Shown here: piece after piece, positions 11,203 to 37,057 of the stretch
Numbering within the stretch: the stretch's first letter is position 1
Layout: each line of letters opens with the position of its first letter
NCBI RefSeq assembly: GCF_000196115.1
Contig: NC_005027.1
Span: 1,488,001 to 1,552,000, forward strand
DNA length: 64,000 nucleotides
Origin: Rhodopirellula baltica SH 1
GTDB lineage: Bacteria; Planctomycetota; Planctomycetia; Pirellulales; Pirellulaceae
Reading direction: 5' to 3'
The notes under the pieces: model-generated
Database searches by the model: none
Told to the model about the DNA's origin: nothing
What the model saw: only the letters and a program-made list of their open reading frames with translations
Translations under genes and position numbers: made by a program

Positions 11203-11819
11203 GGATGTGAACTGGAAGTCGAGGAGAGTTGTTTGGCTTCGTCCCGTGACGTTTCGTTTCAAAGGCGTCGTCTGCCAAGACGCCGACGACTGATGACGAG
11301 AAATGCAGGGACGATCCGGCCAACAACACTGCACGTCCCGTGAGACGCATACGGCGTGCCACTTGCTCGTTGTGGCATCATGGCTGTATCCGCAAGCACC
11401 ACATCTTTGGTCTGTTCCGGCGGGACCAAACTTAGCAGCCTGTTGATTTAGTCGCATACCGAATGACAATCATTAGCCGTTGGGCGTTAGCCCCGGTTGG
11501 CGTCTAGTCAACCGCCGCGAACGCGGTGCGGTTCAATAAATCAACAGCCTGTTAGCCGATTTTTGCGCACATTTCGGATCGCACTGAATTGGGCAACGAA
11601 TCGGCCGGTGCGAACTTGTCGGGCGGAAGGGGGCCTGCAAATCGCCGTGTGGGCAATGATTGACATTGCCGTAATGCGAGGTCGTCCACTCACGCTCTTA
11701 TCACTCCAACTCGTCGTTGTAGATTGCCGGAGTCTTACTCATCGCGCTGAACGTTTTGGCATGTCGCTTGCGGGTCTCGCATCTGAATCGACGACATCTA
11801 CTCAGTTGGTAGGAGCATC
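11203..11819. other. Divergent intergenic region containing mobile element copy 1
   Basis: 617 bp between the ZIP gene and the epimerase gene. It holds the 116-bp repeat element described separately (11436-11551). The rest has no credible gene or RNA. Both promoters must lie here; the element is about 234 bp from the ZIP start and 268 bp from the epimerase start. Confidence 0.6.
11436..11551 (+). mobile_element. 116-bp MITE-like element, copy 1
   Basis: Ends CAGCCTGTTGATTTA and TAAATCAACAGCCTG form 15-bp terminal inverted repeats with one mismatch. A 4-bp direct repeat TTAG flanks it (11432-11435 and 11552-11555). The interior has two bulged hairpins: AACCGC/GCGGTT around CGC-GTTC-GCG and GGGC/GCCC around a TAAC loop (read on the minus strand). 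It matches copy 3 at all but about four positions. It codes for nothing evident. Confidence 0.85.
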
Positions 11820-12890
11820 ATGTCTGAACAACCAACCACAAGTCAGCGACCCGCCGTGATCGTGACTGGCAGCACGGGAATGCTGGGGTATCCGGTCTGC
11901 TTGCGGCTCGCTGAAGCTGGCTATCAAGTCTTCGGGTTTGATCGAGTCGGTCTCCCTGAACCACCGAAGCTACATGATTTCGTTCGCGACATCCAGTGCG
12001 ACATGGCTGACTCTGTGTCGGTTCGAGCTGCGATGGAAAAGGTGCACGAACTGACCGGTGGTCGGCTGGCCAGTGTCGTTCATATGGCGGCTTACTATGA
12101 CTTCTCCGGCGAAGACAGCGATTTGTACGAGAAGGTCACTGTCAACGGAACCGATCGGCTTCTCAATCAACTCGAGGACTTCGAGTACGAGCAGTTCGTT
12201 TTCACCAGCACCATGCTCATCCACAAGCCATGTGAAATAGGCGAACGAATTCGCGAAGACGATCCGCTTCAGGCCAAGTGGCCGTATCCTCAAAGCAAAC
12301 TGGAAACCGAACGACTGATTCGGGAGGGGCACCCGAACGTCCGCTCCGTTTTCCTGCGAATTGGTGGCGTTTACACGGATTATGGGCGGCAACCGACTCT
12401 CGTACAACAAATCAAACGCATCTACGAAAAGGACTTCCAAGGTCACTTCTTCCCGGGTGACACAGATGCCGGCCAATCAGCGGTGCATTTGGACGACACG
12501 GTCGAGGCGATCGTTCGGACGGTTGAACGACGATCTGACATCGAAGCCAAAACAGCCATTTTGATTGGCGAGCGGGATCCGCTTTCGTATCAAACACTCC
12601 AAGATCGAATCGGAAGGGAACTTCACGGCAAAGAATGGTCAACGCACTATGTTCCATCCGCGCTCGCGAAAGTCGGAGCGGCGGTGACGGACGTGGTCCA
12701 ACGCGGCGACTCGTTCATCAAACCGTTCATGATCGACATGGCCGACGATCACTATGCACTGGACATCTCGCGGGCCAAAGAGTTGCTGGATTGGGAACCG
12801 CAACACAGCCTTTCGGAGACACTGTCGACGATAACCAGACAGCTGAAGTCAGACCCTGAGACTTGGTATCGAAAGAATGGGTTGAAGTGA
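11820..12890 (+). CDS. NAD-dependent epimerase/dehydratase (extended SDR)
   Basis: 356 residues. The Rossmann motif TGSTGMLG is at 16-23; the catalytic Tyr156 and Lys160 are in YPQSK; Ser/Thr residues FTST lie at 128-131. This is the extended short-chain dehydrogenase fold that acts on nucleotide sugars or related substrates; the substrate is not deducible. The start ATG at 11820 has an upstream GGTAGGAG-type ribosome site. Its stop overlaps the next start by one base (TGATG), so it is translated with the VKOR-like gene. The C-terminal part (residues about 200-350) keeps the usual substrate-binding layout, LDDTVEAIVRTVE. Confidence 0.88.
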   Translation: MSEQPTTSQRPAVIVTGSTGMLGYPVCLRLAEAGYQVFGFDRVGLPEPPKLHDFVRDIQCDMADSVSVRAAMEKVHELTGGRLASVVHMAAYYDFSGEDSDLYEKVTVNGTDRLLNQLEDFEYEQFVFTSTMLIHKPCEIGERIREDDPLQAKWPYPQSKLETERLIREGHPNVRSVFLRIGGVYTDYGRQPTLVQQIKRIYEKDFQGHFFPGDTDAGQSAVHLDDTVEAIVRTVERRSDIEAKTAILIGERDPLSYQTLQDRIGRELHGKEWSTHYVPSALAKVGAAVTDVVQRGDSFIKPFMIDMADDHYALDISRAKELLDWEPQHSLSETLSTITRQLKSDPETWYRKNGLK

Positions 12891-13522
12891 TGTCGAAAGT
12901 GACCATTCCGGTAGACGATCTGAACCGAAACGTTCCGCCTTACAAGCACAATCCGTCGGCCTGGAGTCAGCGGATTCCGATTTGTTTGTTGGCATTCGTC
13001 GCCGCAGCGATCTCAGCCCATCTTTCGTTGTATCAGTGGGGATTGATCGAGAGTTCTTACGACCCGGTGTTCGGCAACAGCAGCAACGATGTGCTCACGT
13101 CGGACACCGCCAAAACGATGTACGGCATCCTTGGCATCCATGATGCTTCCCTGGGTGTGTTGGCCTATCTCGGTGACGCGATTCTGGGATTCGCTGGATC
13201 AACCAGACGATGGCAGTATCGTCCTTGGTTGGTGATTTTGTTCGGCATCGATGTGATTCCGCTTGGTATCGTGAGTGTGATTTTGGTGATTTGCCAAGCA
13301 TTCATTGTCGGGGAATGGTGCTTTCTGTGTTTGGTGACCGCGGCGATCTCGTTGGTGCTCGTTTACTGGGCGTGGGATGAAGTCCGTGTGTCGTTGGCTT
13401 ACTTGCGTATTGTTTGGGCAGAGCATCACGATAAGCGTTTGCTTTGGGATGCAGTGTGGGGCGTTCGCTCAGAAAAACTGGATGCGGCCGGTGAACAACT
13501 ACTTTCGCGTGAGGTGCGCTGA
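12890..13522 (+). CDS. Vitamin K epoxide reductase (VKOR)-like membrane protein
   Basis: 210 residues with about four to five hydrophobic segments. The VKOR active-site pair Cys144-x-x-Cys147 is in EWCFLCLVT at the start of the last helices, as expected. The second Cys pair that normally relays electrons in the first periplasmic loop is missing: the loop reads ESSYDPVFGNSSNDVL. VKOR enzymes make disulfides by reducing quinones; without the loop cysteines this one needs a partner or does another quinone reaction. Start overlaps the epimerase stop (TGATG), stop overlaps the SPW-gene start (TGATG), so the genes are translationally coupled. Confidence 0.82.
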   Translation: MSKVTIPVDDLNRNVPPYKHNPSAWSQRIPICLLAFVAAAISAHLSLYQWGLIESSYDPVFGNSSNDVLTSDTAKTMYGILGIHDASLGVLAYLGDAILGFAGSTRRWQYRPWLVILFGIDVIPLGIVSVILVICQAFIVGEWCFLCLVTAAISLVLVYWAWDEVRVSLAYLRIVWAEHHDKRLLWDAVWGVRSEKLDAAGEQLLSREVR

Positions 13523-13878
13523 TGTGGGGACGAGTGATCGAAATCATGACGGCGGTTTGGTTAGCAGTCAGCCCGTTCGTGTTTAGCGTGCAATCTGATC
13601 CGAATTTGCTATGGGGCGATCTCGGAGTCGCTCTGTTGATCTGTGTGCTGTCCGGTTTGTCTTACTGGCATCCAACGCGTCATGCTCATTTGTTGATTCT
13701 TTTGGTTTCGATTGGATTGATTGTTTGGGGACGCTTCGCGGTCCTGCCACCGACTCCTGCTCACCAAAATCACATCGTCGTTGGCATTTTTCTCTTGATG
13801 ATTGCACTCATTCCAAACGAAGCCTCGCTGCCACCGAGGGCGTGGCGAAAGCTTCCAACCGGAGACGAATGTCCGTGA
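13522..13878 (+). CDS. SPW repeat family membrane protein
   Basis: 118 residues with four hydrophobic segments. The first half has the SPW-type signature (ISPFVF-like: AVSPFVFSVQ) typical of this family of small membrane proteins; function is unknown. It is coupled by a one-base overlap to the VKOR-like gene and by a 10-base overlap to the next gene. Epimerase, VKOR-like and SPW genes are often neighbours in bacteria (recalled, not checked), so a shared envelope role is likely. Confidence 0.72.
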   Translation: MWGRVIEIMTAVWLAVSPFVFSVQSDPNLLWGDLGVALLICVLSGLSYWHPTRHAHLLILLVSIGLIVWGRFAVLPPTPAHQNHIVVGIFLLMIALIPNEASLPPRAWRKLPTGDECP

Positions 13879-15068
13879 GCGATCGACTCGTCGAAATTGG
13901 CGTGATCGTCACGGGAACACTCGACGCGGTGGACGAAGCCGCGGTGCGTCGCGGACTCGATCAGTTTCGCGAATTTTTGAGAGTTCGTTTTCCGGACTTC
14001 CGATGGGAAGTCAAAACGACGCGGCGTCCGGAATCGGTCGCGTCAAAGCGAACCGCGCCGAGTGCGTTGTTGCAACAAGCGTTGAACGAACGAGACGAAC
14101 AGCACTGGGATTTCGCGTTCGCGATCACCGCCGCAGAACTCGAGAGTCACTACTCGCACCATTGCTTCGCGGCGCTCAGTCGGCCATGGGATTCTGCCGT
14201 TTTCTCGCTGTCGCTGATCGACCCGCGTGCGATCGGACGAGATGCGGAATCGGAACTGCGAATCGCAACCATTGCCAATCGATTGAGTCGATTGATGTTG
14301 CATGCACTCTCGCATTTGCTCGGTCTTGTTCGCGATTCCAACCCGACGAACCTTCTGTTTCATCCTTCGTCAGCAGAGCAACTCGATGAGATGGAAGAAC
14401 TCACTGATTCCCAAGTGGAACAACAAATCTCGGCACTTGTCGAAATTGCCGATCAACGTTTAGAGGAACGTTCAGGCAGCTCAACGACGTGGATCAATTT
14501 CATGTTGCGATCGGCGGTCATCAATGCTCGGGAAATATGGCAAGCGATCTTCGCGGCGCGACCCTGGCAATTCCCGCGGCGGCTGAGCGGGCTGACCTTG
14601 GCGGCCGTGTCCACCTTGGTCGTGTTGCTGCTGACCGCGGAATCGTGGGACTTGGCATTGTCGCAAAGTTTTGCCAGCACCACTGGCTTGGTTGTCGTGT
14701 CCTGGATTGGCACCACCACTTACGTCGTGTTTCGTCAGCAATTGATCGTTCCAAATCGCACACGACAAAGCGAACAAATGGTTGTCACGAACCTGTCCGC
14801 GATTGGAATTGTCTTCGCCGGAATGTTGGTGACTTGGTTGACACTCACGGTCGCTGCCTTGGCGATCGCTGGACTTTTGTTTGGGCCCAATCTCATCGCC
14901 GAGTGGGCTGCATCTTTGTCGCAACCAGCGTCGCAGATTGGATGGGCGGAACGTTTCTCGATGTCGACGTTCAGTGCATCGCTGGGGCTGATGATCGGTG
15001 CACTGGGAACCAGCTTCGAATCGCAACACTACTTTCGCCACATCATCTTTGTAGACGAAGAAATCTGA
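13869..15068 (+). CDS. Unknown protein: soluble N-domain plus four membrane helices
   Basis: 399 residues from the ATG at 13869, chosen because the longer frame reads through the SPW gene. Residues 1-205 look soluble and contain LHALSHLLGLVRD at 144-156, an H-x-x-x-H-x-x-G pattern like the zinc site of matrixin/archaemetzincin proteases but without the catalytic Glu. About four membrane segments fill 230-399. No family is recognised. Four-gene coupling with epimerase, VKOR-like and SPW genes implies a shared envelope or redox role. It converges on the next gene. Confidence 0.75.
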   Translation: MSVSDRLVEIGVIVTGTLDAVDEAAVRRGLDQFREFLRVRFPDFRWEVKTTRRPESVASKRTAPSALLQQALNERDEQHWDFAFAITAAELESHYSHHCFAALSRPWDSAVFSLSLIDPRAIGRDAESELRIATIANRLSRLMLHALSHLLGLVRDSNPTNLLFHPSSAEQLDEMEELTDSQVEQQISALVEIADQRLEERSGSSTTWINFMLRSAVINAREIWQAIFAARPWQFPRRLSGLTLAAVSTLVVLLLTAESWDLALSQSFASTTGLVVVSWIGTTTYVVFRQQLIVPNRTRQSEQMVVTNLSAIGIVFAGMLVTWLTLTVAALAIAGLLFGPNLIAEWAASLSQPASQIGWAERFSMSTFSASLGLMIGALGTSFESQHYFRHIIFVDEEI

Positions 15069-15129
15069 TTGCGTCGCTTGGAATGAATGATCTCTCGGAT
15101 TCGGTGCCGTGCGTTGTACCCAGATGAAA

Positions 15130-17238
15130 TCACTGCTGCGAAAGGCGTTCGTATGCGTCCCGGGTCATTCGGTCAGTTGGTGGGATCGTCAGCAACACCA
15201 TTTTTGCGGATGCCCTCGCCTTGTCTGGATCACCGGACGCGGCAACGGCTTGAATCCAACCAATCATCGCTGAATGCCAACTTGGGTCACCTTGAGGGAG
15301 TCCGTCCGCCAGTCGCTTCCACCATCGCGCAGCGTGCTTCTGATCCGATTTGGACTGGGAGACTGCGTACGACGTCGCGGCTCTCCGGCACCATTCATCC
15401 GCGCCGGATGGTGATTGTTGCAATTCGGTCGCGATCAACGTTTCCGCCGCATCGCGTTGGCCGGCCCAAATGAGCCAACCGGCACGCTGGAGATCGGTCG
15501 GGAATTCTCTGTCTGACGGAAGCGACAGCAGGTAGCGCCCGACATCGACTCGTCGAACCGGATTCTGAACCACGTCCAATTCCAGACGCATCGCCAAAGC
15601 GTCATTCACATCAGCAGGCGGCGACGCCTCGATCAGATCCGTTTGGTTTTGACGGAAAGACGCGAGTTGCTGAAAGAACCCATCGCTCGTTTCTTTTTGC
15701 AGTTCGCTCCACAGGGCATCGGACTTTTCCGCGAGCAAGACGGTCAGGTCCGCGTGAGTATGCCGAGCCGTCTTTGTCGCGTTGTGTCCCTGAAACGCTT
15801 GGTGCATTGCCGCGATAATATTGGGACTTGGTTGGTGAATCCAAGCATTTGCCCAAGATCGAATCGCCTGGGTTCGCACCGAATCACCCGATGATTCATC
15901 TGCCCAGTGAACATCGACAAACTGAACGGAGATCTTCGCTGCCTCAAGCCATTCCGATTGCCGTTCCGCCCAAGCCATTCGCCAACGCGTCGCGGCGAAA
16001 GCGGATTGGGACTCCGGCCATTGTTGTGTGATCTGGATCAGCATTGCTTCGACATCGGCATCGGTGGCAACCGTCGTTCCCGCGGCTTGACCGATGGTGG
16101 CCGCCTGCAGCAACGCATCCGCGGAGCTTGTCGAGTTGGGGTGTCGTTGGCTGATCCGATGAAGCAACTCGATCGCCGCTTTCGCGTTGGAATGCCGCGA
16201 TAGGATCGCCGCCGCTTTCATCGCTGAGTCAACACTTCGGGTGGCGACCTCATCAGAGACGGCGGCTTTTGCAAAGTGCAACGCTGCTTGCATGGATTGG
16301 CCGCGCCGAAGGTAGTACATCGCATCAGCGATCCACAGCCGCGGATCGGATCCGTCGCCCGGCGGATTGGCGGAATCCATTCCTGATTGCAGACGAGTTT
16401 GAGCGACGATGGTGTCCGCCCGATCTTTCGCGTTGACTCCATGCCGTTTGCGAATGATTTCCAACCAATCGGCGATTGCTTGTTCGTCTTTTTGTAACAA
16501 CAGATAGCGCAGCCGAACCAGATCCATTGCGACGCCAACGTTGGCCGCCGTTGGATCGCTTCCGTAGACGGCATCAAGCATGTTATTCGCCGTTTCCATG
16601 TCACCGGCCGACAGTGCGACTCGGATGCGCAAAGCCCGGACGGATTCGGATGACGAACTTGATTCTGAGGTTGTTACGACCGCGCCCGCAGATTCACGAA
16701 GGACAGCGGCCGCCGATCTCGCGTCACCTTGTCGAAGATGAGCCTCGGCGAGCAATCGCAAGACTTCCGCGCGAGCGATTCCCCCTGAGGGCAAAGCCGA
16801 CAATGCCGCTTCCGCGATCTTGACCGCCTCGGCGGCTGATGCGACCCCGTCGCCGCTTCCTTCGGCGAACAGTTCGGATTTGAGCACCGCCAGTTCGACC
16901 CGGGAAAGCCATAGCAAACTCACTTCACGAGGCGACTCGGATGATTGCAGCTCATTCAGCTGAGCCTCGAGCCTCCCATCGGCTTCGCCAACGTTGGTCA
17001 GCAGAAGCGAGAGTTTGTCATCGGGGATCGGTCTCGCGATGACTTCGATTAAATCGTTTCGAGTGGACTGCACATGGCTGTCACCGGAACTCGTATCGAC
17101 CAATCGCGATGTGCGATTTGCCGAGTTCGTGTTTGTTGCATCGGATGTCGTTTGAGCCAAGCCCACCGTGGCCAACAGCATCGCTGGTAGGCAGGTAGCA
17201 ACCACGACGAAGTTCAGTTGTTTTAGCCGGAAACTCAT
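15130..17238 (-). CDS. Exported helical-repeat protein (TPR-like)
   Basis: 702 residues. An N-terminal signal peptide (hydrophobic VVVATCLPAMLLATVGLA, cleavage after AQ) indicates export. The rest is rich in Ala and Leu and made of repeated amphipathic helix pairs such as LRLLAEAHLRQGDARSAAAVL, as in tetratricopeptide proteins. No enzyme motif was seen. Its start overlaps the stop of the upstream ExbD gene by four bases (ATGA), so it is coupled to the two ExbD genes. In planctomycetes such proteins are found with Tol/Exb-type energisers (recalled). A periplasmic scaffold or lipoprotein-like partner is plausible. Confidence 0.75.
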   Translation of the reverse strand: MSFRLKQLNFVVVATCLPAMLLATVGLAQTTSDATNTNSANRTSRLVDTSSGDSHVQSTRNDLIEVIARPIPDDKLSLLLTNVGEADGRLEAQLNELQSSESPREVSLLWLSRVELAVLKSELFAEGSGDGVASAAEAVKIAEAALSALPSGGIARAEVLRLLAEAHLRQGDARSAAAVLRESAGAVVTTSESSSSSESVRALRIRVALSAGDMETANNMLDAVYGSDPTAANVGVAMDLVRLRYLLLQKDEQAIADWLEIIRKRHGVNAKDRADTIVAQTRLQSGMDSANPPGDGSDPRLWIADAMYYLRRGQSMQAALHFAKAAVSDEVATRSVDSAMKAAAILSRHSNAKAAIELLHRISQRHPNSTSSADALLQAATIGQAAGTTVATDADVEAMLIQITQQWPESQSAFAATRWRMAWAERQSEWLEAAKISVQFVDVHWADESSGDSVRTQAIRSWANAWIHQPSPNIIAAMHQAFQGHNATKTARHTHADLTVLLAEKSDALWSELQKETSDGFFQQLASFRQNQTDLIEASPPADVNDALAMRLELDVVQNPVRRVDVGRYLLSLPSDREFPTDLQRAGWLIWAGQRDAAETLIATELQQSPSGADEWCRRAATSYAVSQSKSDQKHAARWWKRLADGLPQGDPSWHSAMIGWIQAVAASGDPDKARASAKMVLLTIPPTDRMTRDAYERLSQQ

Positions 17239-17741
17239 GGCGCGGTGGGCTCCGCCGTCGAGTTGTTCACCAGACTGGATGAACGGTCAGCTGAAACGGC
17301 CAAGTGAACTCGGTCGAGTCCAGCCAATCGAACCAAGTCGACGGTCGCAACAGTGATCGCCATCGAGACGTCGCCGTCCGGATCAACAATCACTGGCGGT
17401 GAGATTCCTAGTTCCGCGATCGCATCCAACCGTTCCCGCAATGAAATCACGGAATTGAACTGCGTCGTCCCCAGGACATAACGCACCGACTTGGAACCGG
17501 TGCTTTCGATCTTCAGGATCAACTCCTCCATCGGAATATCATTCGTCTGTTCGGGAGGCAGTTTCTGCGACGAAACAGACGACGACTCCGCGGCAACTGC
17601 CAACCCGCCCGGCATGTCTTGCTCGGGTGCATCGAAACTACTGGTCCAGACAAAGAATACCAGCAGCAGAAAAACGACATCGATCATCGACGTCATGCCG
17701 ACGCTCTGTTGCGAATTGCTTTGGATGGCGGGACGCTTCAT
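17235..17741 (-). CDS. ExbD/TolR-type biopolymer transport protein (second)
   Basis: 168 residues with one membrane segment at about 16-35, TSMIDVVFLLLVFFVW, that carries the conserved membrane Asp of ExbD/TolR. The C-terminal periplasmic domain is about 130 residues. ExbD works with ExbB as a proton-driven motor that energises outer-membrane or envelope processes. It overlaps the first ExbD gene (17738) by four bases. No ExbB or TolQ gene is adjacent. Confidence 0.85.
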   Translation of the reverse strand: MKRPAIQSNSQQSVGMTSMIDVVFLLLVFFVWTSSFDAPEQDMPGGLAVAAESSSVSSQKLPPEQTNDIPMEELILKIESTGSKSVRYVLGTTQFNSVISLRERLDAIAELGISPPVIVDPDGDVSMAITVATVDLVRLAGLDRVHLAVSADRSSSLVNNSTAEPTAP

Positions 17742-18178
17742 CGAGACGCTCCCGACCGGTTCGATGATGGCAGTGTCGCGATCGATAAATCTCGGATGCC
17801 GATTCGGTTGATACGATGCAGCACCGGTTCAACAAACCGATACGCCACGCTTTGGTCGACCCGCAATCGAACGGGCGTCTCAACGATCGATTTGGTTTGG
17901 CTGAGCCGAGTGATCATCTCATCCAGGTCGACTTGGGTCGCCCCCAACCACAACTGATGTGACGAATCCATTGTCAGATTGATTGGAGCCGCGTTCGGAT
18001 CACTTTCGATCGACGACTGGGCGGATGGCAGATCGACCGCGTGCCGGTTTTCTTGGCGAGCCAAGTGACTTGATACCAGGAAGAAAATGATCAACAGAAA
18101 CACGACATCGATCATCGGTGTCATGTTGATCTCGTCCACCCGACGACCGTCTTGAATGGATTGGCTGGGTGAACGCAT
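17738..18178 (-). CDS. ExbD/TolR-type biopolymer transport protein (first)
   Basis: 146 residues. The classic ExbD start, INMTPMIDVVFLLIIFFLVSS, has the membrane Asp and single helix; a periplasmic domain follows. It is the first gene of the minus-strand operon (ExbD, ExbD, exported helical protein). The gene upstream is on the other strand, so the operon contains no ExbB/TolQ; the motor subunit must come from elsewhere. Confidence 0.88.
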   Translation of the reverse strand: MRSPSQSIQDGRRVDEINMTPMIDVVFLLIIFFLVSSHLARQENRHAVDLPSAQSSIESDPNAAPINLTMDSSHQLWLGATQVDLDEMITRLSQTKSIVETPVRLRVDQSVAYRFVEPVLHRINRIGIRDLSIATLPSSNRSGASR

Positions 18179-18267
18179 GGGAGAATGAGATGAGCGAGAT
18201 AGTCACGGCGGTTCCAGACCACTATCGTAGTGCAAATTCTACATTTGTTTTTCACGCGAAAAATTGC

Positions 18268-18909
18268 ATGACTTCGGAATCTTCCTCGTCGCTTTCACAA
18301 GACACGCCAGATTGTCCCGAAGTTCCGCGCGGTGGTGCATGGACGTTCGTCAAAAATTTCGCTCGAAACCCGAACCAGGTGGGGGCGGTCTGGCCCAGTA
18401 GCCCAGGTTTGGTGAAGCGAATGGTCGAGTGGTTTGACTGGGAAACCGCTCGTGGAGTCGTTGAGTTTGGGCCCGGGACCGGCGTCTTCACCGAGGCCAT
18501 TCAGAACCAATTGCACGAAGACGCGAAATTCTTTGCGATCGAGCGGTCGCCTGAGTTGGCCGCGATCACCCGCGCTCGTTGCCCGCAAGTCAATGTGGTG
18601 GAGGATTCGGCAGAATCAGTCGCGAATCTTTGCCGAGACAATCAGATTGACCAGGTTCACGCGATCATTTGCGGTTTGCCTTGGGCATCGTTTCCCGACA
18701 GTTTGCAAACCAGCATTCTGGAAGCCACCCTGGACGTGCTGGCTCCCGGTGGTCAGTTCGCGACCTTTGCGTACTGGCAAGGCGTCGTGTTGCCCGCGGG
18801 CCAGCGTTTTTCGAAGAAGCTTCGAGGGGCTTTCACCGAGGTGCACCGAAGTCCCACGGTTTGGCGAAACATGCCGCCGGCGTTTGTTTATCGCTGCGTC
18901 AAACGCTGA
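18268..18909 (+). CDS. Phospholipid N-methyltransferase-like protein
   Basis: 213 residues from the ATG at 18268; the longer frame from 18169 overlaps the divergent ExbD start and adds no similarity. The N-terminus FVKNFARNPNQVGAVWPSS matches the start of rhizobial-type PmtA and related rRNA-dimethylase-like methyltransferases. SAM motif I is VVEFGPGTGVFTEAI; the later ICGLPWASFP resembles the NxPY-like catalytic motif. The family methylates phosphatidylethanolamine toward phosphatidylcholine. The substrate here is an inference. The gene is alone, divergent from the ExbD operon. Confidence 0.78.
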   Translation: MTSESSSSLSQDTPDCPEVPRGGAWTFVKNFARNPNQVGAVWPSSPGLVKRMVEWFDWETARGVVEFGPGTGVFTEAIQNQLHEDAKFFAIERSPELAAITRARCPQVNVVEDSAESVANLCRDNQIDQVHAIICGLPWASFPDSLQTSILEATLDVLAPGGQFATFAYWQGVVLPAGQRFSKKLRGAFTEVHRSPTVWRNMPPAFVYRCVKR

Positions 18910-19209
18910 AGCCTTTTCTCGTCTGCTTGGGCATGACCGTTGCACTGGTGACGACCGCGGTCGCCATTGGGCCGGATCAATGTCTCGTACTGTCGATGAC
19001 TCAGGAAAATCACCCACGCGGTGAAGAAACCGCCAAGGGTGACGCTATTTCCATCCATCGGTTGGAAGGGAATACGATTGATCGAACAACGGCGACCAGC
19101 GACAATAGGTTGTTCGGCCAGTTCATATGGGCCGCGTTCAACAGACTATGTCGCGACCGCATTCGCGTTCAAAAAATCTCAATAGACAAACCTTCGTAGG
19201 AAACCCAAC
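18910..19209. other. Intergenic region, 300 bp
   Basis: No credible gene, RNA or strong palindrome seen. An AGGAAA ribosome-site-like stretch at its end precedes the 19210 start. Confidence 0.4.
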
Positions 19210-26692: not shown

Positions 26693-27024
26693 TCAGTTCC
26701 CGATGCATGTTGAAGGACCAGATAAATCACCGAGCGTCACCGCATCGTTTCATCTGCGGCTCACCGGTACACAAGGCTCATGAGATTAACAAAGTCGCGC
26801 TGCCGATACTTCGGCAACGGTGTGTGGATTGATCGATCGCTAAAGTTGTTTGGCAGGAATGATCAGGCACGACTATCGGGCTGTTGATTTATTGAGCTGG
26901 ACCGCGTTAGCGCCAGCTGATTAGACGCCAACCGTGGCTAACGCCAAACGGCTAATGATTGTCATTCGGTATGCGACTAAATCAACAGCCTGCTATGTGA
27001 GCCGATCGGGAATTTGTTCCTGTT
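26693..27024. other. Intergenic region with mobile element copy 2
   Basis: 332 bp. Holds the 116-bp element at 26877-26992; no gene or RNA seen in the rest. Confidence 0.5.
26877..26992 (-). mobile_element. 116-bp MITE-like element, copy 2
   Basis: Inverse orientation to copy 1. Ends CGGGCTGTTGATTTA and TAAATCAACAGCCTG; 4-bp flanking duplication CTAT at 26873-26876 and 26993-26996. Hairpin 1: AGCTGG at 26895-26900, AC bulge, CGC-GTTA-GCG, CCAGCT at 26913-26918. Hairpin 2: CCG, TGGC at 26935-26938, TAAC loop, GCCA at 26943-26946, AA bulge, CGG. These differ from copy 1 and 3 by paired changes. Confidence 0.85.
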
Positions 27025-27973: not shown

Positions 27974-28228
27974 GAGACGTTAGTCAATTGATCGAGAAAC
28001 AGGTCCCAGCTCCTCAAATGCAAAGGGACCCAACAAACATTTCGTGACCGAAGCTTTAAGAGGATTTTCGTCGCAGGCGAGGAGTAGTTGTCATGTCATA
28101 GACACTGCTTGGACAATTCGCCGCCTCATCTTCGGTTCCTTGAGTGAAAGCAGCGAACAGTCGGAACTGTCAATCCTACCACGCGATGATGGCGTTTTCA
28201 GAATGTAGCACTTTTTCGATCGCCTACA

Positions 28229-28720: not shown

Positions 28721-28814
28721 TGGTAAGTAGAGTTTTCAATCAGAAAAGGAGATGAAGCGTCAGTAACGGTCAGGGTCGCTCGGAGGAAGAAACGTTCGCC
28801 AACTGTTCGATATT

Positions 28815-29303: not shown

Positions 29304-29534
29304 AGTTCAAACATTTCTTGCAGGGTTCAGGTCACACAACTGTTCAGTTCGAATCGCAGTCTAGCAAAGCCAACAGCGACTGCCCACGGAAGCTTGGCGA
29401 CACACCAAGATCACTCTTGTGAAGGCTCGCAACACAATTGCGACACCGACAATTCGCGAAGTCGATGAAGATGATTGGTTGGTGAGCGATGAAGATGACA
29501 TGGTCGAGGCGAGCGGTTGATCCTTTCAAAAGCC

Positions 29535-30089
29535 CTATTTCGGTCGCTCAGGTGCACCCGCTGGTTCGCGGATTCGCGGTGCGGGTTTGACGAACCGAAA
29601 CGCCAGCAATCCATCGTACATTATCTCGCCATCCGACCGCATTCCGACCTTTTCGAGCACGCGAATGGATGCAACGTTCTCCGGAAGCACAAAAGCGAAT
29701 ATCTCTGGAAGACAAAGCGTTTCGAAACCGAAATCCAGACACGCTGCGCATGCTTCCGTCGCGAAGCCGTGCCCCCAGTATTGTGGACGGAATCGATATC
29801 CAATGTCCACCAAGTCCATTTCGGGTAGGTACTTCAGCCCACAGAATCCAATGATCACTCTTGTTTGTTTGAGAATGCACGCCCAGCGGCCATAACCTAC
29901 TTCGCGAAAATCGGGGTATTTCGCGATCGCTTCTCTTGCTGCGTCAAGTGATGTGAGGAGCGGCTCGCCAGTCAAACGCATCACATCCGGGTTGCTGTTG
30001 AGGGCAAAGAACTCCGCGGCGTCGTCTACGGTAAACGCGCGATGCTCCAGACGTGCTGTTTCGGGACCGGTCGTGTAGGACCTTCTCAT
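29535..30089 (-). CDS. GNAT family N-acetyltransferase (RimJ/RimL-like)
   Basis: 184 residues from the ATG at 30089; an upstream start at 30137 adds no similarity. The motif QYWGHGFATEACAACLDFGF is typical of the RimJ/RimL branch, as are TARLEHRAFTVDDAAEFFALNSN and the late LPENVASIRVLEKVGM. Likely acetylates a protein N-terminus or a small amine. Single gene. Confidence 0.85.
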   Translation of the reverse strand: MRRSYTTGPETARLEHRAFTVDDAAEFFALNSNPDVMRLTGEPLLTSLDAAREAIAKYPDFREVGYGRWACILKQTRVIIGFCGLKYLPEMDLVDIGYRFRPQYWGHGFATEACAACLDFGFETLCLPEIFAFVLPENVASIRVLEKVGMRSDGEIMYDGLLAFRFVKPAPRIREPAGAPERPK

Positions 30090-30338
30090 CGTTCTGGTTT
30101 CCCTCGATCGCGAACCGGTGCAATCTTTAGCTGCCAATATTGAAGTTCACCAGTTCGTTCGTAGTAGTTTAGACGACACAGTTGTTCTGTTGCGTATTGC
30201 TGCGGAATGCGTTCTTCGAAATCGACCGAACGATGCTTAACCTCTACCGAGAGTGCTTCAAAGGGCCGTCTGAGTAAACAACAATCGAAGAATAAGTTCC
30301 GGATAGAAAGTGTGGCATAGGCTTCTAGTCTTTTTATA

Positions 30339-30514
30339 CCCCACATCTCGAAACACCAAAGATTAGTGTTCGATCAGAGCGGATTAGTGTTCCGCCAGAA
30401 AGGACAAGGGAACACTAATCTCCGCTAATCGAACACTAATGGTTCTTGGACAAGGGATGTTTGGCTTCAAAACGACTGTATTCCCAACGCAAGCGGCTCG
30501 CAAAAGATGTGGGG
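30339..30514. repeat. Nested inverted-repeat cluster (outer arms)
   Basis: CCCCACATCT at 30339-30348 and AGATGTGGGG at 30505-30514 are perfect complements. They enclose a long palindrome at 30362-30440 and are followed by a third hairpin at 30522-30564. Confidence 0.65.
30362..30440. repeat. Long inverted repeat, ATTAGTGTTCGAT type
   Basis: Left arm 30362-30393 (starts ATTAGTGTTCGAT) and right arm 30409-30440 (ends ATCGAACACTAAT) pair over about 30 bp with a few mismatches around a 15-bp loop. Each arm is itself a double ATTAGTGTTC word. Such words are frequent in Rhodopirellula-type genomes (recalled). Confidence 0.75.
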
Positions 30515-30521
30515 TACAGAA

Positions 30522-30564
30522 AGGCTTCTAGCCTGTGTTCTGCGCAATCACAGGCTGGAAGCCT
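30522..30564. repeat. Hairpin AGGCTTCTAGCCTGTG family
   Basis: AGGCTTCTAGCCTGTG at 30522-30537 and CACAGGCTGGAAGCCT at 30549-30564, one mismatch. A related half-copy GGCATAGGCTTCTAGTC lies at 30314-30330. Confidence 0.7.
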
Positions 30565-30861
30565 ATGCCACTTGTTTCCCCTCGGGCCGCGTTTTAAATC
30601 ACACTTGAAGATTATTGACTACCGATCGGACATTTTGATTGATTGTGTGGTCGTCAGACGCATTCTTCTAAATGCATCAGAGAGCAATCGAAGCAACCGA
30701 AAATGGGATCGACATCGCATATTGAACTGTCGTTCGTGGGGGCGTTGCAAACATTGGATAACAGATGCAATGGCGGGGGCAAATCGCATGGGGATCACGC
30801 GAAATCGCAGCTCCGCCTGTCCGTCGTGGTCAATGGCTATGAGGCACTTGATGTGCAGACT

Positions 30862-31551
30862 TCACCCCATTCCGAGGTCTTCGATGAATCTCGTGGTTCT
30901 GGTGATTTTGGAGCCGTCTGTGCCCAGGGTAGCCGCCACGATCGGTCGGAGTTCGTGGAGTATCTCTTCGTCCGTGCGTAGATGCAATTGTTTTGTGGCG
31001 ACGGAAATGCCTGCCATGCGTCGTGCAATCGCACCAAAGGTGGCTGCTGCGTCAGGTGGGATGCTCCGAAACGGGATGGTGATGATGTGGAGTGCGAGTG
31101 TCGCACAAGCCGCGAGTGCGAGAGTCAGAGGGAGGATCGCGACATCAATCGTGACGGAACCGAGAAACGCGATGACGAAGGTCGTCGTAGCTAAAAAGGC
31201 TAGCAGTTTGCGCAGGATTGCTGGTCGGCGAAGACCTGGCGCCGCCGTACCAAGAATGTCGTCTAGTTGAGCCCACAGTTGTCGGCGTTGCGTTCGGTTC
31301 ATCATGTCGACAACACGAGTTCCGATTCGTATCCGCAGCGTTTGATCATTCGTCAGTTCGCGGACGCTGGAACGCAAACGCAGGAACGATGTTAGCGTGG
31401 GGCATGTTGCAATATGGGCGGCGCCAATTCGCGATTGAATCAACGCGACGAGATCACCGACGGTGAGTACACGTTCCGTTTCGTCGTTCCGGATTGAGAT
31501 GCCGAAGTGATCTTCGACAATCATTACGATTTCAACAGCGTCGAGTCCCAT
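30862..31551 (-). CDS. Membrane protein with acyl-carrier-like halves at both ends, permuted order
   Basis: 229 residues. The N-terminus, MGLDAVEIVMIVEDHFGISI to about residue 40, matches the part of acyl carrier proteins that follows the phosphopantetheine serine (helix II onward). The C-terminus, ILHELRPIVAATLGTDGSKI to the last residues FIEDLGMG, matches the part before that serine (helix I). The halves are thus in reversed order, and the DSL serine itself is absent. Between them lie a charged region and two membrane segments at about 115-160. Similar ACP-like membrane proteins beginning MGLD are known to me from other bacteria, without function. It may fold as a circularly permuted ACP-like domain. 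Start ATG 31551. Confidence 0.72.
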   Translation of the reverse strand: MGLDAVEIVMIVEDHFGISIRNDETERVLTVGDLVALIQSRIGAAHIATCPTLTSFLRLRSSVRELTNDQTLRIRIGTRVVDMMNRTQRRQLWAQLDDILGTAAPGLRRPAILRKLLAFLATTTFVIAFLGSVTIDVAILPLTLALAACATLALHIITIPFRSIPPDAAATFGAIARRMAGISVATKQLHLRTDEEILHELRPIVAATLGTDGSKITRTTRFIEDLGMG

Positions 31552-31683
31552 GATTCAGCCAGGTGACAGGAAGAGGTTGTGGCGTGATCGGTTGTTAGCT
31601 GTATCTCGCCTAAGTTCGTCGCTACGACCCAACTCTGTGTCAGGACACCGAGCTGCTCCTTTAAGTAGTTTGATGACGGCGTG

Positions 31684-31908
31684 TTAGTTGTGGGACGCCG
31701 CCGATTCAGCCGGAGTCTGCGCATTGGCATCGAGAGCATATTTGTCGGCGCCGTATTCTAGCAAGGCACGAACCGTTCGAGTGTCTCCTTGCGTGCAAGC
31801 CTCGTGAAGCGGTGTGCGATGACGGATGTGGTCCATCAGCTGAGTCAGCATGTTGGCAGACGGCGAAACTCCGAACGTTCGGCGTGGATGGAGCCCTGCT
31901 GCCTGCAA
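31684..31908 (-). CDS. Ankyrin-repeat fragment or small ankyrin protein
   Basis: 74 residues with one ankyrin-like repeat, HRTPLHEACTQGDTRTVRAL then LEYGADKYALDANAQTPAE. Ankyrin proteins have several repeats, so this is either a remnant or a very small protein. Neighbouring frames show no continuation. Confidence 0.4.
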   Translation of the reverse strand: MQAAGLHPRRTFGVSPSANMLTQLMDHIRHRTPLHEACTQGDTRTVRALLEYGADKYALDANAQTPAESAASHN

Positions 31909-31915
31909 TCGGCCG

Positions 31916-32407
31916 CTAGATTCTCAGCAAGAGTACATGGAGCGACAACGCGATCGTGATGGAAACAACCGTTCTGAAAACGTTCCATCGATTCCATTGA
32001 GCCTCGAAGACAGACCGCGCGGCCAGCAGTTCTTGATCGTCTTTCTGTTCAACGTCAATCGCCTGGATCTTGTTGTTTAGCGGGATGTTGATTCGAACAG
32101 TCGGGAGCTGAACTCCCAACAGGTAAACAACCGCAGCGACAATTAATAACGTTCGATCCACTCCATCAATCTGTGAGAAGCCGATGACCGCCGCAACAAC
32201 GATCGCTATGGCGGACCCAATCCAAACAAACATGAAGAAAGGCTGGTTGTCTTGTATGACGCCATCGATCACTTGAAATGCACGAATAAATGACCTGTCG
32301 TTGAGTCGACCGATGCCAGGCATCGCTACAACATCAAACGCAAAAAGAAAGCCGGCAACGAGTGAGCACAAAAGGGTCGCGGATACCAAAACAGTGTGGA
32401 AAAACAT
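31916..32407 (-). CDS. DUF1772-like (anthrone oxygenase family) membrane protein
   Basis: 163 residues with four hydrophobic segments in the family arrangement: an N-terminal helix followed by LFAFDVVAMPGIGRLNDRSFIRAFQVID, then FMFVWIGSAIAIVVAAVIG, a third helix and the C-terminal FRTVVSITIALSLHVLLL. The conserved RxNIPLN motif is seen as TVRINIPLNNKI. Function is not known for bacterial members. Start ATG 32407. Single gene. Confidence 0.8.
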   Translation of the reverse strand: MFFHTVLVSATLLCSLVAGFLFAFDVVAMPGIGRLNDRSFIRAFQVIDGVIQDNQPFFMFVWIGSAIAIVVAAVIGFSQIDGVDRTLLIVAAVVYLLGVQLPTVRINIPLNNKIQAIDVEQKDDQELLAARSVFEAQWNRWNVFRTVVSITIALSLHVLLLRI

Positions 32408-32820
32408 TGACTACAGTTCGGGTTGATGCATGACAGCGATAGCGAGTGTTCGACGTCTCATTCTACATTCAACCACCGGCAATGGTTGCTTGGGCGCAGT
32501 TCGTGCGTGTGGTCATCGTGATGTAGTTGCAGAAGTCTTGATCGGATATCGGGGCGAATCGGAAGGTGATTGTGAGAAAATTGACCCGCACGAAGACGGG
32601 CATTCCAAACGTTTGGTTGCAGCCGTCGGTTCGCTGGTTCAGCACTACGGGAAGACGTCGTATTGGGAACTCATTTGTGAAACCGAGCCAAAGGGCTTCC
32701 ACGTGGACGCGTATTTTTGCGTAAGCATCTTGGTCCCGCTCTCGCACGCTTGGGTACGACGGGGAGACGGACGGAGTACTTCATGCAATGTGACGTCGCC
32801 ACTCTGTGTACGTCGCATTG
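32408..32820. other. Intergenic region, 413 bp
   Basis: Two overlapping opposite frames exist (146 residues plus, 92 residues minus). Neither has recognisable homology. The minus one (32469-32747, starting MRERDQDAYAK) looks more protein-like in composition and could be a small orphan. Confidence 0.35.
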
Positions 32821-33297
32821 CTACCCGCCGTTTGCTGAGTCACGAATTTCTCCGTCGTCCTCATCAATGATTCCATCGCCGTTAACGTCCTCGTCGGCGA
32901 ATCGATAGCCGCAGCGGAACGAACGCCGCTGTTTGAGATTGCCATCATCAAGACGGATATCGTACAGCAACCATGCCCCCGTCGGTACGTTTGATTCAAT
33001 CAGTTCGTGTTCCGCTTCTGTGACGGGACGTTTGCATCGCACTTGGATGAGATGAGGGAACCGTCTCAATAGGCGAAGATGGGCGTCGTTAAAACCGCGT
33101 GGCGGTAGCGATACGTAGTAAACGTCACTCGGCACCCGCACTGGCAGCGATGCACCGCACAACCCAGTGCCGGCAAACGGGTCGCGTCCTTGGGTTTGTA
33201 TTCCGGCGTCCTCGAATCTCTCAAGAACGTTTCGGGTATCTGAGAGCTGAGGCGGCGCGCCGATCGAGATCGCGATGACTAGTGAAACAATTGACAT
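32821..33297 (-). CDS. Exported hypothetical protein with a C-terminal calcium-loop-like motif
   Basis: 158 residues. A short hydrophobic N-terminus (VSLVIAISIGA) may be a signal peptide. The C-terminal DVNGDGIIDEDDGE resembles a single EF-hand or dockerin calcium loop. No other domain recognised. Start ATG at 33297. Confidence 0.55.
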   Translation of the reverse strand: MSIVSLVIAISIGAPPQLSDTRNVLERFEDAGIQTQGRDPFAGTGLCGASLPVRVPSDVYYVSLPPRGFNDAHLRLLRRFPHLIQVRCKRPVTEAEHELIESNVPTGAWLLYDIRLDDGNLKQRRSFRCGYRFADEDVNGDGIIDEDDGEIRDSANGG

Positions 33298-33830
33298 TCA
33301 GCAATCCTTTGCAGTGATTCATTCGGGCAACATTTTTGATCGGGGCCCAGGGGAAGTTGAATTTTTTCAACCTCACGGAAAGCCCTGCGAATTGGGAAGC
33401 GATGGTTGTCCGCCGCCTCTTTGTTACCAGATTGGATCAAAGAAGAAAACATTGAGCACAGCCAGAACGCAATTCGCTTTCTCTGGGCAGAGAAGCCAGT
33501 CGGTTCACTATCTTCTTCGAGCGTTTCGCAATTGAGTTCTTTTGGCGAGCCAAACTGTCACAGGCGAGCAGGGCGTTCTACGAACAAGTTGCGGCGAAAC
33601 TGGCAAATCCTGTAGAAGACGGTTGCTCGCCGAGGGAGGTAACGCCAAGATCCTGTCGATCAAACGCCAAGTCGGCAGTTAGGTGGTGTGAGAGGTTTTG
33701 CGGCCAACCGGGCCGCTGCTTCGATCGCAGTTTCTATTCAACAGTCACGACGTCCAAATTATGCATTGCGCTCCCGAGAGTGTCTGTTGGGCAGAGCAGA
33801 GCAGCAACGCTTGAGCAGTAAGTGCGCCCC
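33298..33830. other. Intergenic region, 533 bp
   Basis: No credible gene or RNA. Mobile element copy 3 begins just after it. Confidence 0.4.
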
Positions 33831-33834
33831 ATAG

Positions 33835-33950
33835 CAGACTGTTGATTTAGTCGCATACCGAATGACAATCATTAGCCGTTGGGCGTTAGCCCCGGTTGGC
33901 GTCTAATCAACCGCCGCTAACGCGGTGCGGCTCAATAAATCAACAGCCTG
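33835..33950 (+). mobile_element. 116-bp MITE-like element, copy 3
   Basis: Ends CAGACTGTTGATTTA and TAAATCAACAGCCTG; flanking duplication ATAG at 33831-33834 and 33951-33954. Interior hairpins are AGCCGC/GCGGTT and GGGC/GCCC (minus strand). It differs from copy 1 at about four positions and overlaps the end of the next gene. Confidence 0.85.
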
Positions 33951-34349
33951 ATAGGTGATGGCTGCGGAAAGCAGGAATGCAAGCATCGCTGAAAGCCAAG
34001 CTACTGGTATGTTCCGCGGGATATCAGCAAACGGATTGATCAAGAATAGCGGGCGACATGAAGTAACGGATATCTGCCCCGCGAAAAAGCCGAGGCCGAG
34101 AAGGATCTTTGAACGCAACAAAACAGGATTCAAGTAGCAAAGCACCGCAGTGAAGCCGAGCAATGCACCGCCCGCAGGTGGCATCTCGGTCGACAGCGTG
34201 TCGGTCCACAGCAGCACCCAATGCGTGGAAACACCGATCAAAGTGCCAACGAAAAGTCTAAGGAATACCGTACGTTTCGATCGACGTTCTTCATCAACAC
34301 GGCATGACTGTGGTGTCTGAGACGGGTTCACGCCACAGTGCTCAAACAT
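33903..34349 (-). CDS. Hypothetical membrane protein whose C-terminus is encoded by the mobile element
   Basis: 148 residues with about four hydrophobic segments. No family recognised. The last residues, AVDLLSRTALAAVD, and the TAG stop are encoded by element copy 3, so the original C-terminus was replaced or extended by the insertion. The gene may be a truncated relic. Confidence 0.55.
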   Translation of the reverse strand: MFEHCGVNPSQTPQSCRVDEERRSKRTVFLRLFVGTLIGVSTHWVLLWTDTLSTEMPPAGGALLGFTAVLCYLNPVLLRSKILLGLGFFAGQISVTSCRPLFLINPFADIPRNIPVAWLSAMLAFLLSAAITYQAVDLLSRTALAAVD

Positions 34350-34459
34350 GGCGTTTCATCGACTTTCATTAAATCACAGTCAGCGTCGCTCGCGGATAGC
34401 GGCCGGTGTGATTGGAAAGCGAAACTGGTTTCCACCACCGCTGTGGGTGCACGCATTTG

Positions 34460-34972
34460 TTATTCGTCTTGTATTGGAGGTGAAAATGACTGGGCAGACT
34501 CTTTTTTCAAAAACCGAAGGTAATCACAGGCATCGTAGTAGTCACCGGGCACATAACGACCGAGGTCAACCGAATGGAGATACGAGTCGAGTGATCGAAA
34601 AGTGGCTTGGTAATGGCATCGAGCGTCATTGCCACCGCCGTACTTTTCGTGGTTGATGAATCCGATATTGCAGTCAGTGGTTGTAGGATCGCACGCGAAC
34701 CAGTCACCGCTTGGACCAAAACCAACGGGCAGCAGGTCGCATTCGAGGATTTCGTCGATCCACGGGAATTTCGTTATTTCGGAAACTGGACCAAACGTGA
34801 TGGGACCGATCTGACAAGATTTCAACGGCCAATACCACTGAAGCAATCGCTTGAGGTCGACGGTGATTGGCAGATTTTCAACCCAAGCAATATCACGTTT
34901 GGCTGCATGTCCGATTTCGCATCCATCTTCAGCGAGGTGATAGATCAGGTTTCGAGCGATCGAGAGTGACAC
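34460..34972 (-). CDS. SMI1/KNR4 (SUKH)-like protein
   Basis: 170 residues. The phrases LLPVGFGPSGDWFACDPT and the following IGFINHEKYGGG fit the SUKH fold (Gly and Trp/Asp spaced as in SMI1/KNR4 proteins). SUKH proteins often act as immunity proteins against toxins. No toxin gene is adjacent. Assignment is moderate; start ATG 34972. Confidence 0.6.
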   Translation of the reverse strand: MSLSIARNLIYHLAEDGCEIGHAAKRDIAWVENLPITVDLKRLLQWYWPLKSCQIGPITFGPVSEITKFPWIDEILECDLLPVGFGPSGDWFACDPTTTDCNIGFINHEKYGGGNDARCHYQATFRSLDSYLHSVDLGRYVPGDYYDACDYLRFLKKESAQSFSPPIQDE

Positions 34973-35091
34973 GACTTATTGCTTGTATTGGTAACGGTTG
35001 TGATACACGGGCGGCAAACAATTTTAACACTTCCAAGACGGCGACAACCACCGCCGCAAGCCTATCCGCCGTATGAGGCAAGGCTGTGCTG

Positions 35092-35616
35092 TCACGTTCG
35101 GTAGTGCCACGTAGGAAAATTTGGCAGTCGAGACAGTAAGAAAAGTCCCAGGATACCCAACGTCACAAAGACGACAATCACCGTGATATTTTTGGGCGGA
35201 TGAGTGACGAACATGGGACATCTGCACAACTGGACGTAAAGGCACGATATCAGCAATGCAATGGGAAGTTCTATCCAACGATCAAGGTGTCCAGAGGCGA
35301 TTTCACTGTGGAAGCATGAAATTGGCAACGTTAGGAGCAACGACAAGCCGGCGATACGAGCGAAACGCTTGAATGGAAGGAGACAGCATGCGAGCAAGCA
35401 TGCAATTGCGTAGTCGATCGGCCGCCCAGATACATCGAGCAACCGTTCATAGAGCCAACGCGGGAGTTTGCGGTGCAAGTCCCAGTCATCGATGCCAAAC
35501 CATGTCACACATTCGTATCGGATATCAATCGTCAGGTAGTTGATGTAACCGTTGATGCCGACAGCGAGTATTGCAAAGCAAGGAAATACTAGCAGTTCAG
35601 CGATTGAATATCGCAT
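35092..35616 (-). CDS. Hypothetical membrane protein
   Basis: 174 residues with about four to five hydrophobic segments (for example ELLVFPCFAILAVGINGYI and VVFVTLGILGLFLLSRL). No family recognised. Lone orphan in the accessory region. Confidence 0.55.
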   Translation of the reverse strand: MRYSIAELLVFPCFAILAVGINGYINYLTIDIRYECVTWFGIDDWDLHRKLPRWLYERLLDVSGRPIDYAIACLLACCLLPFKRFARIAGLSLLLTLPISCFHSEIASGHLDRWIELPIALLISCLYVQLCRCPMFVTHPPKNITVIVVFVTLGILGLFLLSRLPNFPTWHYRT

Positions 35617-35811
35617 TGGCGGAGTGGGCTCTTTCAGTTGGATAACATTTAGGTTTTGCGAGCTGGGAGAGTTGGTTTGTTAATTCGCAGGGCCTGCACG
35701 CCCTGTTCTGCGATGAGCCATCGTTATTGCCCTGTCTTACACCCAGCACGTTTGAACGAGCGAAGACAGTCGAAGGCGAACCGTGTTTCGTTCCGATTCA
35801 ATTTAGCTACG

Positions 35812-36120
35812 TTAACTATTTGTCGTGATTGAACGACCAAGTAACGCACCACCGACGGCGCCCAGAGCAGCGCCGACGGAGACGCCGATCAGGATACATG
35901 GTGCAACGAACATCATTGTGAAGTCGCCCGCATCGCCAAACACGGCAAATCCACCGTAGAATCCCGCGACCAGCCCAAGGACACTTCCAAGTAGAGAGAA
36001 GAATGTTACTGCGGCCGCTCGAGCAACTTTTGCCGCAATACGGGTTTTGTTTGGAGTGTCGAGTTCAGAGAGGACATGAATGTCCGTACCCGGCGGCTCG
36101 TAGGGACTTACGTCTTGCAT
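35812..36120 (-). CDS. Small Gly/Ala-rich two-helix membrane protein
   Basis: 102 residues. Start DVSPYEPPGT is common in small planctomycete membrane proteins. Two Gly/Ala-rich helices (VTFFSLLGSVLGLVAGFYGG and VSVGAALGAVGGALLG). No function known. Confidence 0.6.
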   Translation of the reverse strand: MQDVSPYEPPGTDIHVLSELDTPNKTRIAAKVARAAAVTFFSLLGSVLGLVAGFYGGFAVFGDAGDFTMMFVAPCILIGVSVGAALGAVGGALLGRSITTNS

Positions 36121-36594
36121 GGCATTGCTTGCTTTTCACCTGATGGTCAGGTGCGAATAAGAGATAAGACGGTTGTCTGCAATTTACCGATGGGGATACG
36201 TCGCTGTCTTGGAACTTGGTCTTGTCAGACGGCGCGGACTTCGTCTGTATGGGTGACCTTTCCTCGCCGTGGTGAGCCGCGGTCATTCTGCCGCGTCGTC
36301 ATTTGCAGCAAGAAGAGTTTTGACAAGTTCTGCGAGGCAAAGGATCACTTCTTTCGTTTCTTAGAAAGTGTCGAATTAGATTGCGAATGCATTCTTGGGT
36401 TTCAGCGAACCGGTTGCAAGTATTTTTGCACCAAATAGGGTTGGGTAAGAAGTTTTCGGTCAGCCTGTTGCTCCGCATGGAACCGGGGTGGCGCTCAAAC
36501 GGTTGAGGTGTTGTTGTCCGAACGTTTCTTCTAATGTGGTTGGGTTGCTCGTGTGGAAGACGCATGTTTGGTCGTTCTGGACAACCGGGGCTAA
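36121..36594. other. Intergenic region, 474 bp
   Basis: Only short overlapping frames; one reads into the mobile element and is not a gene. Nothing recognised. Confidence 0.4.
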
Positions 36595-36710
36595 CGGGCT
36601 GTTGATTTGTTGAGCCGCACCGCGTTAGCGACGGTTGATTAGACGCCAACCGGGGCCAACGCCCAACGGCGAATGGTTGTCATTCGGTATGCGACTAAAT
36701 CCATAGCCTG
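36595..36710 (-). mobile_element. 116-bp MITE-like element, copy 4 (degenerate)
   Basis: Ends CGGGCTGTTGATTTG and TAAATCCATAGCCTG, more mismatched than other copies. Flanks CTAA (36591-36594) and CACG (36711-36714) do not match, so no duplication is seen. Hairpin 2 keeps GGGC/GCCC; hairpin 1 has one mismatch. Probably an older copy. Confidence 0.75.
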
Positions 36711-37057
36711 CACGTACCTGGTTTGAGACCGCGGCGTGCGTCAAACATCGAGCGGGGGCTCGGCGAAGCATCCAGTCAGCGAAGCATCCAGTCAGCGGAG
36801 CAGCGGTTAAGGGCACATGATTTTTTCGATCTGTGCCCGGGAGTCAGTCTGCAGCCGACCGCCGGTGTTCCGTTTGTGTCCTCGAAATCCGTTTGTGTCG
36901 TCGGGACCCGTGCGAGCGGACTTCGGCGAATAACCCGACGCCCTGAAAACGATTTGCTTTGAACAGCGGGCTTGCGTGGTTTCATTTGAACGCGGGGTGC
37001 TTCACAATGACGTTTCCCGCCCCGCCCCTTCCGTCTATTTTTTGTGGAGACCGTTTG
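36711..37057. other. Intergenic region before the PQQ-like gene
   Basis: 347 bp. Holds a 16-bp tandem duplication (36763-36794). Otherwise no gene seen; a longer TTG frame from 36959 continues into the PQQ-like gene and is not preferred. Confidence 0.4.
36763..36794. repeat. 16-bp tandem duplication
   Basis: Two perfect copies of GCGAAGCATCCAGTCA at 36763-36778 and 36779-36794. Confidence 0.8.

Follow-up and report, generated by a model that had tools for sequence, protein, structure and literature searches.

A 116-bp transposable element family with REP-like cores in Rhodopirellula baltica SH 1 and its probable driver in sister species

What moves a short, non-coding repeat through a bacterial genome in which no gene for its movement is found? 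The question is raised by a 64,000-nucleotide stretch of Rhodopirellula baltica SH 1 (NC_005027.1, positions 1,488,001 to 1,552,000; hereafter the window), which holds four dispersed elements of 116 bp. An initial annotation described them as resembling miniature inverted-repeat transposable elements (MITEs) moved by a source elsewhere. Their lengths, positions and inverted ends were confirmed, as were the 4-bp duplications reported at copies 1 to 3 and the CTAA on the left of copy 4 (Table 1). Read in the orientation of the element, the three duplications are TTAG, ATAG and ATAG, and copy 4 has TTAG on a single side. The end sequence CAGGCTGTTGATTTA, with up to three mismatches, has nine matches in the window, eight of which are the eight element ends; 1.09 matches were expected, and the maximum across 100 shuffles was five. 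We report that these copies belong to a non-autonomous MITE family, which was probably moved in trans by a group of IS1182/IS5-like DDE transposases.

The family was collected from the whole genome, a single contig of 7,145,576 bp that includes the window. Two of 63 extracted records were removed (a half-element beside an inserted insertion sequence (IS) and a weak match), leaving 61 full-length elements as a lower bound. All of the best 40 among 129 candidates in the genome search matched the element, and the end pattern was counted at 174 ends, compared with 25 in a backward control. Perfect 4-bp duplications flank 40 of the 61 copies, and 13 more match at three of the four bases; when right flanks were shuffled among the 63 records, perfect duplications averaged 7.7, with a maximum of 20. 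The central TA proposed earlier for the target is borne out: in the 40 perfect duplications, position 2 is T in 39 and position 3 is A in all 40, with C or T at position 1 in 33 and A or G at position 4 in 35 (YTAR, where Y is C or T and R is A or G). A lack of duplications at most copies, or a confinement of copies to larger repeats, had been named as grounds for rejecting the MITE-like reading. Neither was found, since perfect duplications flank the majority of copies and, by strict motifs, 11 of the 61 lie in a GGCATAGGC palindrome and 4 in the loop of a repetitive extragenic palindromic (REP)-like repeat, the two repeats tested.

An empty site, proposed as a check from the outset, was found in a sister species. 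The genomes compared are called 'same genus' or 'family' after the kinship labels of the genome collection, and we take the family to be Pirellulaceae. The region of genome G194 orthologous to one copy (L018) is empty (L276): it measures 28 bp against 148 bp here, exactly 120 bp shorter (116 + 4), and the aligned parts are 85–91% identical. Genomes G193, G194 and G200 hold 13 homologues of exactly 116 bp, 12 of them with perfect 4-bp repeats; L244 and L250 have an identical flank and look like a single shared insertion. Another insertion is common to R. baltica (L316, C1:6695000-6695700) and G193 (L246). In the copy at L316 an extra small element with IS4-type ends lies in unit 1 of the core; in that at L246, unit 2 has been hit by a different small element, whose ends resemble GGAACCRTTCGGAA. 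The perfect duplications at 40 of 61 copies and the empty orthologous site establish a MITE family, in which a short non-coding unit, 15-bp inverted ends, target duplication, dispersed copies and an empty site are all present. A literature search turned up no description of it, most subscription papers being outside the reach of that search.

The copies divide into two subfamilies. In subfamily A, 8 of the 36 copies match the consensus exactly and the mean number of differences is 3.1; in subfamily B, 2 of the 25 do so and the mean is 4.1. These subfamilies show that the family spread in at least two bursts, A being the younger. More than one burst had been proposed from the window; the subfamilies uphold this, but the four window copies, all of subfamily A, are by themselves insufficient to show it. 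Likewise, the earlier reading of their divergence holds for copies 1 and 3, which differ at 4 positions, but copy 2 proved as divergent as copy 4 (9–13 pairwise differences for either).

For the driver, the initial annotation had pointed to IS630/Tc1-like types. IS630/Tc1 elements duplicate TA only. Here the outer two flank bases also match in 40 of 61 copies, so that the duplication is 4 bp and this type is not supported; moreover, an IS with the same ends has an IS1182/IS5-like transposase. Exact CAGSCTGTTGATTTA ends occur in 29 of the 241 family genomes (R. baltica SH 1 counted) and in 9 of the 12 other same-genus genomes, and widely spaced pairs of them were sought. One pair, L229 in G199, bounds a 1476-bp IS with a single long open reading frame (ORF), CAGCCTGTTGATTTA/T ends and YTAR flanks. 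Its transposase exceeds the Pfam cut-offs for both DUF772 and DDE_Tnp_1 and is, judged by its sequence, IS1182/IS5-like. This IS and the MITE have 14–15 end bases in common, and the left end in G199 agrees with that of subfamily B in all 15 bases. Relatives of the transposase (E-value up to 1e-40; at most the best six candidates per genome scored) are present in at least 16 of the 241 family genomes and at least 5 of the 12 other same-genus genomes. No transposase of this type was found in R. baltica SH 1, where all 18 candidates were scored (best E-value 0.053), in keeping with the earlier expectation of an outside source; within the window, the annotated absence of a transposase was checked for PF01609, PF13546 and the candidate driver.

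ISs of this type, 1472–1476 bp long and with GTTGATTT ends, stand in four same-genus genomes (L277-L280 in G199, G192, G045 and G194), and G194 carries both such an IS (L280) and the MITE (L225, L248-L252, L275, L276). Among 29 loci with transposase relatives, 9 were without an end pair, the pair at L291 was chance-like, L289 and L296 proved to be one element with a degraded end, and L300 was a second view of L292, which left 16 distinct IS copies usable; YTAR stands on both sides of all 16. We infer that an IS of sister species mobilised the MITE in trans: an IS1182/IS5-like DDE transposase recognising CAGSCTGTTGATTT ends would have moved the copies. As our search recovered no such gene from R. 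baltica SH 1, the family appears to be stranded in this host. The nearest precedent is the IS1182 MITE of ISMac2 in Methanosarcina acetivorans, with 160 bp, 14 copies and 4-bp repeats (PMC3852290; comparisons with this and the other papers cited extend to the parts of them that were available). Both are short non-coding units with inverted ends, 4-bp direct repeats and, in the present case probably, an IS1182-type partner. Unlike the ISMac2 MITE, the present family has a length of 116 bp, 15-bp ends, at least 61 copies, a REP-like doublet as its core and no partner found in its host.

Several observations weigh against this assignment. The L229 transposase reaches 183 bits with the NCBIfam model for IS1182 (NF033551), the best of eight families, where the cut-off is 270; with the IS5 model it scores 88.6 bits (cut-off 140). 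The likeness between the MITE and the driver-group ISs is confined to the ends, with none further in, and outside the genus most IS copies with intact ends have GTTGAAAA-like rather than GTTGATTT ends. Flanks are identical at 7 of the 16 IS copies, against a shuffled mean of 4.8 (p = 0.17, not significant), and for this reason we regard YTAR at these ISs as a target preference and not as a proven 4-bp duplication. In addition, some duplications in relatives are not YTAR. Finally, genome G025 holds another IS whose ends are exactly CAGGCTGTTGATTTA.

This last element, a multi-copy IS with a gene starting MSRRKHKVS, might itself be the driver. Both of its ends equal the subfamily A end at 15 of 15 bases, YTAR is present at 4 of 6 flanks, and its left end closes three contigs and its right end three others. 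However, G025 is genus-distant. Its assembly lacks the middle part of the IS, which is seen at contig ends only, and a pattern scan recovered the IS from its own assembly only (3 loci), with none in viral contigs. We therefore consider it an unlikely driver; it and the L229-type ISs, which we continue to favor, may be members of one group.

Between the ends, the element carries two inverted REP-like units, AGCCG-N5-CGTTAGC-N3-GGTT. The unit motif has 10 matches in the window, 8 of them within the four elements, where 0.33 were expected. When a single consensus copy was folded as single-stranded DNA, its energy was -34.7 kcal/mol, compared with -15.5 kcal/mol for shuffled sequence (z = -8.5), end pairing contributing to this value. 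In the alignment, several differences of copy 2 hit both arms of one unit, and they appear to keep it paired. Units without the MITE ends were seen in relatives (at most the best seven candidates per genome; also L097), and the target of the copy at L006 holds a free REP-like doublet. On its left, which in element orientation is the TTAG-bearing side, copy 4 runs on as TTAGCCCCGGTTG, half a REP-like unit; it was probably inserted into a REP-like unit, the other half of the target being lost afterwards. The core, the two subfamilies, this half unit and the nested insertions described below extend the initial annotation.

The existence of free doublets invites the idea that the core is the mobile part, moved by a tyrosine transposase of the REP-associated (RAYT) type, with the ends incidental. 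According to the available part of PMC3733652, R. baltica contains a number of REP families together with many genes for tyrosine transposases, and its REPs in general are associated with RAYT genes; class 3 tyrosine transposases are reported in Planctomycetes (PMC6006769, likewise in part). However, the 4-bp duplications sit exactly at the 15-bp ends, and the same ends enclose apparently different cores, which makes this explanation very unlikely. The present core resembles the REP doublets and REPINs (REP doublets forming hairpins) covered in the accessible text of PMC3733652 in consisting of two inverted hairpin units that also occur end-free in relatives; it is unlike them in being enclosed by ends of the DDE type, at which 4 bp are duplicated.

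Table 1. Elements, flanking repeats and REP-like units in the window (positions counted from the first base of the window)
Feature	Position	Strand	Detail
Copy 1	11436..11551	+	116 bp, subfamily A, 112/116 vs consensus
Target duplication of copy 1	left 11432..11435; right 11552-11555		TTAG
REP-like unit 1 of copy 1	11475..11498	+	
REP-like unit 2 of copy 1	11510..11533	-	inverted, 2 mismatches
Copy 2	26877..26992	-	116 bp, subfamily A, 108/116 vs consensus
Target duplication of copy 2	left 26873..26876; right 26993-26996		CTAT
REP-like unit of copy 2	26895..26918	+	3 mismatches vs motif
REP-like unit of copy 2	26930..26953	-	inverted
Copy 3	33835..33950	+	116 bp, subfamily A, 115/116 vs consensus
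Target duplication of copy 3	left 33831..33834; right 33951-33954		ATAG
REP-like unit 1 of copy 3	33874..33897	+	
REP-like unit 2 of copy 3	33909..33932	-	inverted
Copy 4	36595..36710	-	116 bp, subfamily A, 108/116 vs consensus
Flanks of copy 4	left 36591-36594; right 36711-36714		CTAA and CACG, no duplication
REP-like unit of copy 4	36613..36636	+	
REP-like unit of copy 4	36648..36671	-	inverted, 2 mismatches

Copy 3 also reaches into an ORF. The final 15 codons and the stop of the ORF at 33903-34349 (-), whose product looks like a putative membrane protein, come from this copy, and without it the frame would continue to a different end. An Rfam scan of the window gave no family reaching its gathering threshold.

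The variety of cores was examined in 72 distinct elements of 80–260 bp from relatives, all bounded by the MITE ends. Fifty-nine came from loci numbered L155 and higher, most of which were retrieved with the end pattern, and 13 from loci retrieved through core homology; some elements may be orthologous or overlapping. Of the 72, 20 are 118 bp long, 17 are 117 bp and 13 are 116 bp (50 of 72 at 116–118 bp), and 39 have perfect and 20 three-of-four duplications, against a shuffled mean of 4.7 and maximum of 11. Grouped by the 12-mers that they share, the cores fall into 10 clusters (26, 25, 8, 4, 2, 2, 2, 1, 1 and 1 elements) and, by motif, into 8 groups with 8 elements outside any group, these motif groups being self-defined and coarse. 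The REP and CCGTAAGGC core groups, which have edges in common, may be one diverged core; the GTCCGTC, GCGAGGG, GTTTAAC and GGCATAGGC cores look unrelated. The GGCATAGGC palindrome forms the core in L221 and L222; in R. baltica it occurs on its own and is a site of insertion. Among the duplications in relatives are TCAA, TTGA, ACAA, CTTG and CTCG, which makes the action of several transposases, or a less strict target, likely there. A tentative and almost evenly balanced possibility is that the CAGSCTGTTGATTTA ends form a chassis of near-fixed size in Pirellulaceae, which holds unrelated palindromic repeats, and that DDE transposases spread REP-like hairpins through changes of core.

Insertion into particular repeats does not amount to a general taste for palindromes. 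At the 40 sites with perfect duplications in R. baltica we found no such preference over control sites, with 2.83 against 2.67 complementary pairs of 10 (p = 0.27) and p = 0.21 for the longest run; with the two repeat targets excluded, p was 0.57 and 0.14. Some IS1182 members target palindromes, according to a review cited in PMC5678879, and IS1272 replaces a palindrome without duplication; as far as the available part of that paper goes, the present MITE differs in making a 4-bp duplication and in showing no general palindrome preference. In relatives, 5 of the 72 elements, all from loci picked by core homology, lie inside sequence that rejoins to GTAGCGGAASTCGNCAASASTTTCG with up to four substitutions, and 3 of these have a perfect duplication. 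We take GTAGCGGAASTCGNCAASASTTTCG, judged from its own sequence alone, for a GTAG-tagged REP.

A resident IS with a DDE_5 transposase, which we presume to be IS701-like, also inserts at YTAR. PF13546 has 10 matches in this genome and the flanks of the IS are CTAG, CTAA and TTAG. At L120/L143 and L027 (C1:4478701-4480221) it adjoins a MITE copy with one CTAG in common, so the two elements have the same target type. Nevertheless, its ends (TACTACAGCGCTAA) are unrelated to CAGGCTGTTGATTTA, and we reject it as the driver, a role that is highly improbable for it.

A second resident, a 1.5-kb IS4-family element (NF033592, 197 bits, cut-off 115), has at least 4 matches here among the best 40 of 50 candidates. 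Its near-identical copies (L061:1829-3312, L062, L082 and L084) all lie in loops of GC-rich hairpins, each flanked by 6–8 repeated bases, depending on end placement. Two are in MITE copies (L061 and L062), which at first sight are larger elements with MITE ends, but this IS can hardly be the autonomous form of the MITE and is a passenger, since it is bounded by ends of its own (CCGAATGGCACTTACTTT) and by a separate 6–8 bp duplication inside the MITE, occupies the same REP-loop position in opposite orientations, and has two further copies in the loops of other, unrelated GC-rich hairpins. As in the case of ISRm22, an IS4-family member found in REPs (PMC1525189, in its accessible part), an IS4-family IS is inserted in a REP-like hairpin loop; unlike that case, the REP here is within a MITE, and the IS also inserts into other GC-rich hairpins. 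Elsewhere in the window, at 30311-30580, a GGCATAGGCTTCC...GGAAGCCTATGCC palindrome, which is intact at 30557-30572, is split by ~190 bp that start TATACCCCACATC, end GATGTGGGGTACA and have AGGCTTCTAG on either side. The insert is probably another small mobile element.

The kind of element described here is thus ordinary; its driver is probably outside the host, and its REP-like cargo is unusual. Now that the family is linked with an orthologous empty site and, in sister species, with a probable driver, trans-mobilisation is directly testable. Carriage as cargo between ends of the DDE type may also be one way in which REP-like hairpins are spread. Interchangeable cores, if real, would be relevant to how extragenic palindromes increase in number in bacteria and to why they attract further insertions.

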